Below are positions 39,207-46,035 of a stretch of DNA of 64,000 bases, piece after piece. This stretch comes from Acidobacteriota bacterium (lineage in GTDB: Bacteria > Acidobacteriota > Holophagae > Holophagales > Holophagaceae). The stretch is from the NCBI GenBank assembly GCA_014189895.1, contig BJFQ01000002.1:1-64000 (forward strand), written 5' to 3'. Numbering within the stretch: the stretch's first letter is position 1; each line of letters starts with the position of its first letter. The notes below the pieces were generated by a model. It was not told where the DNA came from, did no database searches, and was given only the letters and a program-made list of their open reading frames with translations. The translations under genes were made by a program, and so were the position numbers.

Positions 39207-40061
39207 ATGCACATAGGACCCTGGGACATCCAAATCGTAAGCGGCGGTCAATTCGCTCTTGATGGAGGAGCGATGTTCGGCACCGTTCCTAAGGTAGTTT
39301 GGTCCAAGGTTTATCCAGCGGATCAAGATAATCAAATCCTGATGGCCACTAACTGCCTCTTGGTTCGAGGGTTTCTGAATGGCAAACAAGAAAATATCCT
39401 TATTGACAACGGTAATGGAGATAAAGAGGACGATGCTTTTATGTCTCGGTTTAAATTTGAAGGTCGAGGGGTTTTGGATCGCGAACTTGCTCGCTTTGAT
39501 CTGACTCCGAAAGATATTACCTGTTGCATTCTTACGCATTTACATTTCGATCATGCGGGAGGCAGTACGCGCTTTGATGCGCATGGAAATCTCGTGCCAA
39601 GTTTTCCCAATGCTCGCTACATCGTTCAAAAAAAAGACCTAGAAGATGCCAAAGATCCTCATATAAGAGTCCGTGCAAGTTATCTTCCTAAAAATTGGGA
39701 ATGCCTCGAGGCGCTAGGTCTTCTTGAAACGGTCGATGGGGATCATGAAATCTTCCCAGGCATTCATGTGCGATTAGCTCCGGGGCATATCGAAGCTCTT
39801 CAGAATGTAGTAATCGAAGGTGGAGGAAAAAAACTTCTTTACTTAGCTGATTTGATTCCCACTTCAAGACATATTCAGCCCGCATGGATTATGGGATACG
39901 ACTTGGATGTGGTTACTTGTGTTGACGAAAAAATCAAAGTACTCAATGAAGTCTGTAACTCTGGTACCGTCCTCGTGTTCGAGCATGACCCCGATGTTCC
40001 CGCGGGCACCGTTTCTCAAGATGCAAAAGGAAAATATATTGTTACGCCAGTAGCTGTTTAG
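39207..40061 (+). CDS. Metallo-beta-lactamase-fold hydrolase
   Basis: 284 residues. The metal-binding motif is LTHLHFDHAGGSTRFD (HxHxDH), with ligands likely in APGHIEALQNVVIEG and LLYLADLIPTSRHIQP. The long DGGAMFGTVPKVVWSK N-terminus and the VFEHDPDVPAG C-terminus resemble the AttM/lactonase-like and quorum-quenching branch of the superfamily, but general MBL is the safe call. No signal peptide. It lies between the slipin and ExbD genes; no functional link to them is evident. Confidence 0.87.
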   Translation: MHIGPWDIQIVSGGQFALDGGAMFGTVPKVVWSKVYPADQDNQILMATNCLLVRGFLNGKQENILIDNGNGDKEDDAFMSRFKFEGRGVLDRELARFDLTPKDITCCILTHLHFDHAGGSTRFDAHGNLVPSFPNARYIVQKKDLEDAKDPHIRVRASYLPKNWECLEALGLLETVDGDHEIFPGIHVRLAPGHIEALQNVVIEGGGKKLLYLADLIPTSRHIQPAWIMGYDLDVVTCVDEKIKVLNEVCNSGTVLVFEHDPDVPAGTVSQDAKGKYIVTPVAV

Positions 40062-41348: not shown

Positions 41349-43070
41349 ATGAAAGTAATTGTTGCCAAGACTGCAGGTTTTTGCTGGGGTGTGAAGCGGG
41401 CAATGGATGCTGTTCTTGAGGCATCTGTCCACAGTGGCAGCCATAAAGTGCAAACACTCGGACCCCTTATTCATAATCCTCAAGCTCTAGCCCTTATTGA
41501 GAACAGGGGTGTTTCGGTGGTTACGGAACCCGAGCATGTCCAAGGTGGCACGGTTGTAATTCGAGCCCATGGAATCCCAATCCAATCTCTACGTGGTCTT
41601 AAAGAAAGGCAAAATCAAGGCGAACTTAATATCGTGAACGCCACTTGCCCAGAGGTGGCCAAAGTCCACAATAAAATTAAAAAATGGAGCCCTAAAGGTT
41701 ACTTCACTATAATTCTCGGTTCCAAGGGCCATCCGGAGTCGATTGCCCATAGAAGTTTCGCTGAAAATGGTTCAATAATCCTTTCGACAATGGATGAAGC
41801 CAGACAGTTGACGTCCAAAGAACTTTCTAAGTGCTTGATTGTTGCTCAAACTACCTATACGGTTAAGGATTTTCAAGAGATCTCTTCTTTTATTGAAAGC
41901 CAAGCGACCGATTGTATTGTCGAGAATACCATTTGCGAAGATACCTGGATGAGGCAAGATGAGGCTGAATCGTTAAGTAAAAGGGTTGATTATGTCATTG
42001 TCGTGGGCGGAAGAGAGTCAAGTAACACCAAACACCTTGCAGAGTTGGCTCAACGCTATGGAAAGCCAGTTCAATATGTTGAAACAGCACAAGAGATAGA
42101 TCTATCTCAATTTTCAGGCTCTGAAACGGTTGGCATCTTAGCGGGTGCCTCAACTCCCACATGGCTCGTCGATGAGGTGGTAGATTATCTCGAAGAAACA
42201 AATGATTCCCTTAGTAAATTGGTCAAAAAATTAAGTCGGGCTTTTTTAACCCCGCTTATTTGGAGCACCTCGGTTGCCTCTGCGAGTCTCGGAGCTTCCC
42301 AAATTTTGAATTACCCCAACGACTTTTTTATTGCTTCATCGGTTGGTTTTTTTATTTTTTCAATGTACCTATCTGCTCCCTACCTCGAGCCCCTAGGTCT
42401 TGGTGTGAAGGGACCAGCCAATGCCAAATTCTTAGAAATAAATCGCTATTTGTTATTGAATGTCAGCATGATATCGGCCCTCATTTCTCTAATACTTTCG
42501 AGGCAAGTAGGTCCAAGCTATTTTCTATGCACCCTTCTTGCCTTTGCCATCAGTCTTGGATATCGAATCGGACTAAATACTCCTCAAACTAAGAGTTTGA
42601 GCTTGCGATCGATCCCGGGTAGTAAAGATTTGTTCGTTCCTCTATCTATCGCTTTCCTCATGATCACCGCACCTGATTTTGAAAACGTAAGAACTCAGGA
42701 TGTACAACACTATCTTATTTTCTTGATCATATTCACTCTAGCGCTTGCTCGAACCTTTATCTATGACTTAAGAGACATGCAGAAAGACCAGGTTTTAGGC
42801 AAGGAGACACTCCCTATTGCTCTCGGGAAAACAAGATCTCTATGGTCCATAAGTCTTCTAATCACTTTTTGCATTTTCGCTGTTGGCTTGTCTTCCGATC
42901 AAGAGGTAAACCCTGTAGATTTGTGGAATCGAATTATTTTGATTACAGCTTTGGGTTACCCCGTTTTCTATTGGTGGTTTTATCATCATCGTTTTTCGGC
43001 GGGCAAGCCTCTTCTAGATGTTCGTCCTGAGTTCAGTTTTTTCTTAGTTGGTCTCTTAGCCATTCTTTAA
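41349..43070 (+). CDS. ispH: IspH (HMBPP reductase) fused to a UbiA-like membrane domain
   Basis: 573 residues. Residues 1 to about 283 are a complete IspH: 4Fe-4S ligands C12, C100 and C196, the substrate residues H42, H74, H128 and E130, and the VAQTTYT and NTICEDTW motifs. It makes IPP and DMAPP from HMBPP, the last MEP step. Residues about 295-573 contain seven or eight hydrophobic helices, with RTFIYDLRDMQKDQVLGKET and LPIALGK matching the second Asp motif of UbiA prenyltransferases (D473, D476, D480). The first UbiA motif (NDxxD) is not present; the corresponding segment is SMYLSAPYLEPLG. Fusions of IspH to such domains exist in other bacteria. The resB gene follows after 17 bases. Confidence 0.92.
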   Translation: MKVIVAKTAGFCWGVKRAMDAVLEASVHSGSHKVQTLGPLIHNPQALALIENRGVSVVTEPEHVQGGTVVIRAHGIPIQSLRGLKERQNQGELNIVNATCPEVAKVHNKIKKWSPKGYFTIILGSKGHPESIAHRSFAENGSIILSTMDEARQLTSKELSKCLIVAQTTYTVKDFQEISSFIESQATDCIVENTICEDTWMRQDEAESLSKRVDYVIVVGGRESSNTKHLAELAQRYGKPVQYVETAQEIDLSQFSGSETVGILAGASTPTWLVDEVVDYLEETNDSLSKLVKKLSRAFLTPLIWSTSVASASLGASQILNYPNDFFIASSVGFFIFSMYLSAPYLEPLGLGVKGPANAKFLEINRYLLLNVSMISALISLILSRQVGPSYFLCTLLAFAISLGYRIGLNTPQTKSLSLRSIPGSKDLFVPLSIAFLMITAPDFENVRTQDVQHYLIFLIIFTLALARTFIYDLRDMQKDQVLGKETLPIALGKTRSLWSISLLITFCIFAVGLSSDQEVNPVDLWNRIILITALGYPVFYWWFYHHRFSAGKPLLDVRPEFSFFLVGLLAIL

Positions 43071-43087: not shown

Positions 43088-45124
43088 TTGATCCTAAGTA
43101 AATTAAAGTCTCTGTGGAATCAAAGGCCCTTTCATGAAAATATTTTCAAACAAATTCTTGCCCTCAAAATATGGGTTTGTTTTTGGATTGTTTTCCAGCA
43201 TCTTTCTATAAGCCTAGGGTGGAATGACATTCAGCAAATCTCCGGCTTCCTAGCCGTTCTTATTATCATTTCTGGCCTTTTGATTGGATTGGCACCTTCT
43301 TGGGCTTACCGGCTATTCACAAGTGTCCCCTTCGCGATTGCCCAATTGGTCTTCATGGCTGCTTCCGTGGCTCTCGGAACTCTCATTCTGCAAGAATTGA
43401 AATTCTCTGAGTACCTAGATATCTATGGCTCGGTATGGTGGGGTGACTTGCCCCTTGTTTTGGTTCGATATGCTTTTGCCTATGACTTATATCGATCTTT
43501 ATGGTTTCTCTCGCTCCTAGCCCTCTTATCCGCAAGTACGTTATCTGTTGCGTGGAAACGTCGGCCCTACACGCTCCCAAGGGGGGGCTTTCTCCTAGTC
43601 CATTTGGCTACTTCAGTTATTTTGCTTGGTGGGCTCATGGGTAAGTTTGGATTTGTAAGAGCCTTCAATGAACTTCATCAAAATCAGCCGGTCACAGTTT
43701 TCTGGAAGGTCAAGGGGCCCGACCCTAATAGTTGGAAAAATCCATTCTCACTTCCTTTTTCAGTAAGACTTGATCAATTTGAAGTTATCAAACACGATCC
43801 TGAATATCGTCTTTATGCTTTCACGCAACCTGACGGCAAGGGGGGGTTCGAAGATAATCCAAAATCCTATGATGCTGAAGCAGGCTTCAAAACAAGACTC
43901 CCGCTCACTTGGAAACGACTCGAAATCTTACAGGCACTCCCCGATGGGCTTAATCGAAGTACTTGGTTTAATGATGTTACTGCTCCAGAAAACCCGGTCT
44001 TACAAGTTATGTTGGGCACTGGCACGCCCAATCCACTCTTGGGCTTTCTAGTCGCCCAAGATCTGAGAACCCAGAGATTTAATGATCCCCAAGGAAGGTT
44101 CTCTCTCTTGTTCAATGAGGAATTTAAACCTAGAGACCTAAGTCGTTTCAAGAGGAGTGAACCCAAAAGCCATCTTGTTCAGCTCACATTCGCAGGTAAA
44201 ACTTTCGATAAGGAGTTTAAAAAAGGTAGCATATGGGATTTTCCTGTTTTCAAACTTAAAATGGTGCGTCTCTTCAATGATTTTCCGTTTAAGAATGATC
44301 CCAATGGGCGACCTGTAAAGGTAGAAACAGTTCCTCCGGAACTGCGTGGGAACTGGGCTGAGTTAGAGTTGATCACTAATGATGGGCAGCAGGCCAAAAT
44401 TCTTTTAAGTGCACGTAATCCTGAATTCTCAAAAAGTCTGAATGCCGGAAATCTACCTCCAGGACTTAGTCTTCAATATCAAATTTCGGGCGAAGAGTCT
44501 TTTTCGAATTTTGTTGTCTTCTCGAAAAATGATATGAAGATTCGTTCGATTGAGAACGGGCGGATTCTTAAAGAAAGCCCCCTGGTACTCGATCGCCCCT
44601 TTATTTTTAAGAATGGATTCTCTGCGACACCCTTATCTCTTTTATTGAACGCACGGGTCGATGGAAAATACATTCCGAACCCTCAAGCCCGCCCTATTTT
44701 AGAGAGAAACCCCGCTGTACAAGTCACTTTGTCGGATCCACGCACAGGTAAAGCGGAAACAGTTTGGCTTGATGGCAGAGAAGCAAAGCCCACGACGTTC
44801 TTCGACAAAAAAATTGGTCTTATCTACCGGCTGAAGGATCAAGAGGCAAGAGATTTCCGATCTAAAATCACCCTTTTGGATACTTCAGGAAAAATATTAG
44901 CCCAAAAACAAATCTCAGTTAACGACCCTCTGGTGTACGAGGGATTATGGTTTTATCAAAGCAACTACAATCCCGAAGATCCTACGGTGAGTGGAATTAT
45001 GGTTGTTTACGAGCCTGGCTTGTGGGTGACCTACTTCGGGTTTGCCATGATCGTTATCGGAACTATATGGATGTTTTATCTAAAACCCATCTTTTTAAAA
45101 AGGTCAGGGAGGCTGACAAAATGA
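43088..45124 (+). CDS. resB: ResB-like cytochrome c biogenesis protein
   Basis: 678 residues from TTG 43088 (GAGG just upstream). Three hydrophobic N-terminal helices (about 25-45, 53-70, 80-102) and one at 165-185 (GGFLLVHLATSVILLGGLMG region) are followed by a large periplasmic domain (about 200-645) and a last helix near 650-668. This layout and the LVHLATSVILL motif fit ResB/Ccs1, which with CcsA delivers and attaches heme to apocytochrome c (system II). The stop overlaps the ccsA start (ATGA). Confidence 0.88.
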   Translation: MILSKLKSLWNQRPFHENIFKQILALKIWVCFWIVFQHLSISLGWNDIQQISGFLAVLIIISGLLIGLAPSWAYRLFTSVPFAIAQLVFMAASVALGTLILQELKFSEYLDIYGSVWWGDLPLVLVRYAFAYDLYRSLWFLSLLALLSASTLSVAWKRRPYTLPRGGFLLVHLATSVILLGGLMGKFGFVRAFNELHQNQPVTVFWKVKGPDPNSWKNPFSLPFSVRLDQFEVIKHDPEYRLYAFTQPDGKGGFEDNPKSYDAEAGFKTRLPLTWKRLEILQALPDGLNRSTWFNDVTAPENPVLQVMLGTGTPNPLLGFLVAQDLRTQRFNDPQGRFSLLFNEEFKPRDLSRFKRSEPKSHLVQLTFAGKTFDKEFKKGSIWDFPVFKLKMVRLFNDFPFKNDPNGRPVKVETVPPELRGNWAELELITNDGQQAKILLSARNPEFSKSLNAGNLPPGLSLQYQISGEESFSNFVVFSKNDMKIRSIENGRILKESPLVLDRPFIFKNGFSATPLSLLLNARVDGKYIPNPQARPILERNPAVQVTLSDPRTGKAETVWLDGREAKPTTFFDKKIGLIYRLKDQEARDFRSKITLLDTSGKILAQKQISVNDPLVYEGLWFYQSNYNPEDPTVSGIMVVYEPGLWVTYFGFAMIVIGTIWMFYLKPIFLKRSGRLTK

Positions 45125-46035
45125 TGAATTTATACTTCAACTTTGCTAAAGCAGAAACGGGATTTCAAATCATGCTGATTGCCTATCTAGGAGCCTGCAT
45201 TTGTTATGCCTTCAGTATTCTCAGGTCTCGTTATGAAGCGACAATTTACCAAATTGCCCGATTTCTTTTCCTTTTAGGTTGGTCCCTTAACGTCTATATC
45301 CTTGTTGAAAGGGGCATCATAGCTGGTCGACCGCCTTTCAAGACTTTCTACGAGAGTCTTATCTATTTCAGTTTCTTATTCGGACTATTGGCACTATCCA
45401 TTGAATGGTTCAAGAAGGTAAAGTTATTGGGTTTTCTTTCACTAGTTATTATTCTTTCGGCAGAACTATTCGCATTATTAAAACAAGACATCGACATTGT
45501 TACTGTCCCACCCGCATTGAATAGTGGTTGGTTTCTTCCACATGTCACCATCTACTTCTCAGGCTATTCCAGTGTCACAGTTGCTTTCGTCCTAAGTATC
45601 CTGGCTTTAATTCGAACTGGAACTATTAATTTAGATAAAGATTCCTTTTGGGCTCGAGCTCTAGGACGCCAAGAAGTCAATTTTGAAGAACTGCATCGGG
45701 ATTGGGTTCGTATTGGTTACCTCTTCCTTCTAGGAGGCTTAATTACCGGAGGCTTGTGGGCCAAATTTGCATGGTCTGATTACTGGGCTTGGGATCCAAA
45801 GGAAAATTGGGGTCTTATCTCCTGGCTAATCTATGGGGTTGTACTACATATGCACCACACTTCCTTTCTGAAAGGGCGGGCAGTCCTGAAGGTGAGTGCG
45901 GCATCGTGGTTGCTCATTTTATTCACTTATTTTGGTATGTCATATCTGCCTACCAAAAGCCAAAGCATGCACATCTATACCGAACCGCTTCCACCCGAAA
46001 AGGACGTTAAAGGCGTGAATCGCGAGATGTACTAA
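45121..46035 (+). CDS. ccsA: Cytochrome c assembly protein CcsA/ResC
   Basis: 304 residues from ATG 45121, coupled to resB by an ATGA overlap. About eight hydrophobic helices. The heme-handling motif is AKFAWSDYWAWDPKENWGLI, followed by YGVVLHMHHTSF; the Trp-rich WWD-type segment and flanking His residues bind heme at the periplasmic side. YFGMSYLPTKSQSMHIY is the C-terminal family segment. With ResB it forms the system II synthetase, so the cell makes c-type cytochromes. Confidence 0.94.
   Translation: MMNLYFNFAKAETGFQIMLIAYLGACICYAFSILRSRYEATIYQIARFLFLLGWSLNVYILVERGIIAGRPPFKTFYESLIYFSFLFGLLALSIEWFKKVKLLGFLSLVIILSAELFALLKQDIDIVTVPPALNSGWFLPHVTIYFSGYSSVTVAFVLSILALIRTGTINLDKDSFWARALGRQEVNFEELHRDWVRIGYLFLLGGLITGGLWAKFAWSDYWAWDPKENWGLISWLIYGVVLHMHHTSFLKGRAVLKVSAASWLLILFTYFGMSYLPTKSQSMHIYTEPLPPEKDVKGVNREMY

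Follow-up and report, generated by a model that had tools for sequence, protein, structure and literature searches.

An IspH-UbiA fusion in Holophagaceae with a conserved second and an eroded first prenyltransferase motif

Results

The only IspH found in a Holophagaceae genome is the N-terminal half of a single protein, whose C-terminal half is a UbiA-fold membrane domain with the second aspartate motif of prenyltransferases and a reduced first one. The architecture itself has already been published; the novelty lies in the metal site, half of which has been degraded differently in each lineage. With moderate confidence, we read the protein as a membrane-tethered IspH whose UbiA domain would bind prenyl diphosphate and whose transferase activity would be weak, altered or absent.

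The fused gene and its IspH half

The gene (41349..43070, + strand) is an open frame of 573 codons plus stop, without internal stops, in the window, by which we mean the whole stretch of 64,000 nucleotides that was analysed. The IspH (LytB) domain (PF02401) occupies residues 1–285 (41349..42203, +); the Pfam LYTB match covers residues 3–282 with 275.8 bits, and the TIGR00216 ispH model scores 254 bits, above its cut-off of 187.85. The membrane domain (PF01040), with nine predicted transmembrane helices, follows at residues 287–573 (42207..43067, +), and here the Pfam match spans residues 370–553 with 45.6 bits (cut-off 34.2). The frame is uninterrupted in more than 80 fused relatives, which rules out an error of sequencing or assembly as the source of the fusion, and the original prediction of an unbroken IspH-membrane fusion holds; three seemingly short fused frames are contig ends that begin within IspH. 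A complete IspH followed by a UbiA-family domain in one frame is also the architecture of the class described by Rao et al. (2015).

The IspH half is complete, as had been predicted from C12, C100 and C196. These three cluster cysteines lie at the expected positions and are invariant in a 33-row alignment of fused relatives, and the active-site His, Glu, Thr, Ser and Asn residues are all kept (H42, H74, H128, E130, T169, S224, N226 and S268, invariant in 50 rows). The host assembly (1.17 Mb) is 97% complete, and since no IspH other than the fused one was found in it, the fused IspH likely reduces HMBPP to IPP and DMAPP.

Fold and second motif of the UbiA domain

An AlphaFold model of residues 289–573 has nine helices (pLDDT 89, pTM 0.89), and Foldseek places it with AfUbiA (4tq3, probability 1.00, TM about 0.6), the closest structures being AfUbiA with GPP or DMAPP. 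Together with the match of PF01040 to 35/35 members of a profile built on the UbiA half (A1), this identifies the nine-helix intramembrane prenyltransferase fold of the UbiA superfamily. In a model of the full chain (pLDDT 86) the first transmembrane helix directly follows the final IspH helix; IspH would lie on the cytosolic side of the membrane.

The second motif, DxxxD, is formed by D476 and D480 within DLRDMQKDQVLGKETLPIALGK (residues 473–494, 42765..42830, +), and D473, D476 and D480 are all where the original prediction had put them. Among 138 fused UbiA domains, a partly redundant set, position 476 holds Asp in 133 and position 480 in 136, and K426, Y405 and G484 are invariant; K426 belongs to a conserved IPGSKD loop (residues 422–427, 42612..42629, +). 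Conservation peaks in loops L4-5 and Hx6-7, which in UBIAD1 cap the active site together with L2-3 (PMC9314443). The mean conservation of the three cap segments is reached by one of 288 circular shifts, namely the unshifted position itself; among these segments, conservation is lowest in L2-3, which holds the first motif. The motif-2 side resembles that of digeranylgeranylglyceryl phosphate and chlorophyll synthases.

Three fused domains (L113, L114 and L115) have N..D in the first motif and lack one or both Asp of the second, which is the opposite of the erosion in the window's gene.

Reduction of the first motif

The canonical NDxxDxxxD maps to A343, P344, E347 and L351 (residues 343–351, APYLEPLGL, 42375..42401, +), and a profile-profile alignment to canonical UbiA proteins pairs A343 with the Asn and E347 with the second Asp (probability 98, E 9e-13). 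One acidic residue, E347, is thus left of the first motif. Of the two DxxxD sites reported for the Rao set only D476-D480 is present; two such sites are a reported trait of that set and not a strict definition, because the third Asp is missing from the fused relatives of the present set as well. Asp occurs in none of the 138 fused sequences at either the first (344) or the third (351) Asp position. At the Asn position the same sequences carry N (52), S (36), T (32) or A (14), and at the second Asp position D (111), N (8), E (7), R (6), S (5) or L (1).

How much should be made of an incomplete first motif? UBIAD1 is an active enzyme with N102TYYDFSKG, lacking the first and third Asp, and its N102S variant, at the aligned Asn, has reduced affinity for GGPP and blunted activity (PMC9314443). 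The MqnP of our own genome carries NRLIDQEID. Taken together, these two motifs imply that the first Asp is dispensable, and since UBIAD1 departs from the full motif, a missing NDxxDxxxD alone does not exclude activity. From the alignments, the first motif is better read as a family-wide N..D state close to that of UBIAD1, from which the window's genus has moved one step further, and its erosion as independent between lineages (N to A, S or T; D to E, N, S, R or L). Mapped on a tree, the Asn requires five or more changes, and the acidic residue at the second position three or more. The original prediction was therefore right that NDxxD is absent, but this is better described as further erosion than as a unique loss, as E347 is acidic and the reduction to N..D is shared by the family.

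It had also been asked whether other fusions replace the first motif consistently. They do not: lineages carry A/E, A/N, N/S, N/R or N/L at the Asn and second Asp. This inconsistency argues against one new chemistry, the second of the two options originally offered for the domain; the first, binding rather than transfer, is still a live one.

In a clade of eight rows around L128–L137, the second Asp of the first motif is Arg, Leu or Asn.

Distribution and selection

All 31 relatives of good quality match the fused protein. Wherever a Holophagaceae genome has a match, Geothrix included, the protein is fused, as it is in a second family of the same class (f2); in a third family (f3) IspH is unfused and distant only (26–31% identity). 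Searches with A1 also recovered fused copies in two more Acidobacteriota families (f9 and f20) and in two further phylum-level groups, whose records are labelled Nitrospinota, Nitrospinia or Nitrospirae. No stand-alone close relative of the fused UbiA domain was found among the genomes searched. Two candidates, L116 and L149, were rejected as distant UbiA proteins (51–54 bits; L149 has NKWTDTDED), and the other weak matches of the A1 searches are ordinary UbiA-type proteins.

One Holophagaceae genome (G010) carries a second, divergent IspH-UbiA paralogue (L200, G010:C1:713000-726000) beside its ordinary copy. The paralogue has 517 amino acids, is 38–42% identical, ends in a shorter C-terminus and has Arg at the K426 position.

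The UbiA domain changes far faster than IspH (about 33% versus 75% identity). For the UbiA half, NG86 gives a dN/dS of 0.11–0.13 in moderately diverged pairs (Geothrix; L027/L030) and of 0.21 for a pair from the window's genus, compared with 0.03–0.09 for the IspH half; a near-identical pair yields 0.02 for both halves. These values are rough, as dS exceeds 1 for L027/L030 and within the window's genus. The UbiA half is under purifying selection and is not decaying, and it is less conserved than IspH and MqnP. At equal IspH divergence, the UbiA half of the window's genus is 33% identical to other Holophagaceae, as opposed to 50%. MqnP of this genus shows a drop too (about 50% versus 68%), and a genus-specific relaxation of the UbiA half was rejected for this reason, catalytic MqnP dropping similarly in the same genomes.

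Genomic context

Besides the fused protein, the genome encodes two members of the UbiA family, one MqnP-like (G000:C3:43250-43993; PF01040 184.9 bits, TIGR01475 above cut-off) and one ChlG-like. Since a separate MqnP-like transferase is present, menaquinone does not need the fused domain. The ChlG-like protein (G000:C5:49431-50159, L002), in a genome that also carries MqnP, has NSSFDQDDGD.

Downstream of the fusion lie the two genes named in the original prediction. A resB-like gene (43088..45124, +; PF05140, 82.7 bits) starts 17 nt past the fusion stop and is probably co-transcribed with it. It is followed by a ccsA-like cytochrome c assembly gene (44947..46035, +; PF01578, 113.4 bits), whose true start is probably further downstream because the first bases of the frame overlap resB. 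This order is found in the window's genus and at a few other Holophagaceae loci, together a minority of the loci in the family. Most Geothrix loci have an SDR gene and polA downstream and no resB nearby, and in other lineages parA-parB, a methyltransferase or other genes adjoin the fusion. As the neighbourhood is not conserved in most Geothrix or outside Holophagaceae, the suggested link to heme or quinone modification through resB-ccsA is unsupported. We found no operon partner common to the lineages inspected (parA-parB, a BchU/CrtF-like methyltransferase, an AP_endonuc_2 TIM barrel, SDR and others) and no acceptor-pathway gene conserved beside the fusion across the loci compared.

Elsewhere in the window, 39207–40061 encodes a relative of YtnP-like quorum-quenching lactonases (NF047919, 198 bits, below the cut-off of 425). 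At one Nitrospinaceae locus (L080:9-5815), the fusion is preceded by genes whose translations, read by eye, resemble those of tetrahydromethanopterin-type C1 metabolism.

Discussion

Our preferred reading is that the IspH made from the fused gene, the only one of the cell, would be anchored in the membrane and fixed at its inner face by the C-terminal UbiA-fold domain. A prenyl-diphosphate site would be kept on the motif-2 side (D476, D480, K426 and Y405). Because the motif-1 side is eroded (A343, E347), transfer is probably weak, altered or absent in this lineage. The domain would then mainly bind or sense prenyl diphosphate, holding IspH where its products are used, possibly with a regulatory role. 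Selection does not preserve a complete metal site of two motifs, since losses in the first motif vary and L113–L115 lose Asp of the second. One could also argue against a tethered binder: E347, as an acidic residue, could bind Mg2+, UBIAD1 is an active enzyme that lacks the first and third Asp too, and the conservation of the cap loops fits an active enzyme equally well.

An active prenyl transferase with a reduced first motif (Glu for Asp), similar to UBIAD1, ranks close behind; it is possible, and somewhat less probable than a tethered binder. Here the fusion would channel precursors, as Rao et al. proposed. D476, D480, K426, G484 and T487 are kept, many relatives have N..D as in NTYYDFSKG of UBIAD1, the domain is under purifying selection and its motif-2 side is like that of two known synthases. 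IspH makes C5 units and UbiA enzymes mostly take longer chains, so that direct channelling would require a further enzyme. No conserved acceptor-pathway gene lies alongside, and several lineages retain the fusion despite having lost either half of the metal site. In a further reading, the domain would be a membrane anchor only and its cavity residues relics. L113–L115 and the clade around L128–L137 keep fold and fusion without key motif residues, and the domain diverges much faster than IspH, as an anchor might; the conserved residues, however, sit in cap loops and not in helices, and the invariance of K426, Y405 and G484 and near-invariance of D480 also speak against relics, which makes this reading unlikely. 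It is hardly credible that the domain acts in heme or cytochrome c maturation, to which the adjacent and recurrent resB-ccsA would point, given the different neighbours in most Geothrix and in other lineages.

A special form of the tethered binder is a sensor, in which the motif-2 half-site would bind a long-chain prenyl diphosphate and feed back on the attached IspH, transfer having been lost in several lineages independently. Drawn by analogy with UBIAD1 and HMGCR, this is speculative and we consider it improbable, slightly less so than a pure anchor. If true, the fusion would be, in bacteria and within one protein, what UBIAD1 and HMGCR are as a pair. Little is known about how the MEP pathway is coupled to the demand for membrane isoprenoids, and IspH, besides being a target for drugs, catalyses an essential step. 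In Geothrix, which can be cultured, the strict fusion with its half-eroded site makes it possible to ask directly whether the last enzyme of the MEP pathway can be tethered, or fed back on, by a prenyltransferase fold.

Comparison with known systems

The MqnP-type transferase of the same genome shares the UbiA superfamily and the DxxxD of motif 2 with the fused domain; it differs in standing alone, in its NRLIDQEID and in its score of 184.9 bits to PF01040. AfUbiA, ApUbiA and DGGGP synthase (4tq3, 4od5, 6m31) have the same nine-helix fold and motif 2, but are stand-alone proteins, and AfUbiA and ApUbiA carry NDxxDxxxD (PMC7839719). UBIAD1, alone or with HMGCR, resembles our protein in its UbiA fold (Foldseek 8djk_B), in a reduced first motif and in its coupling to an enzyme that is key to the early isoprenoid pathway, sensing of GGPP being a feature of UBIAD1 (PMC9314443). 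In contrast to the fusion, UBIAD1 and HMGCR are separate animal proteins of the mevalonate pathway with degradation-based regulation (PMC9314443), and UBIAD1 retains the Asn and Asp that are missing from the window's protein.

The nearest system is the set of 47 IspH-UbiA proteins, mainly from Desulfobacterales, of Rao et al. (2015), the only report besides a paper citing it that a literature search with the term IspH-UbiA returned. The authors noted two DxxxD sites, named the UbiA part PT_UbiA_5, proposed that it localises IspH and uses the products of IspH, and attempted to express a full-length Desulfobacterales fusion, which failed (PMC4746011). Compared by published description, those proteins share with ours the fusion, domain order, size and a separate quinone transferase elsewhere in the genome; they differ in their mainly Desulfobacterales origin and in being said to keep two DxxxD. 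The present set comes from Acidobacteriota and Nitrospinota-labelled relatives and has a reduced first site, and it shows that the fusion, reported from Desulfobacterales, occurs in other phyla as well.
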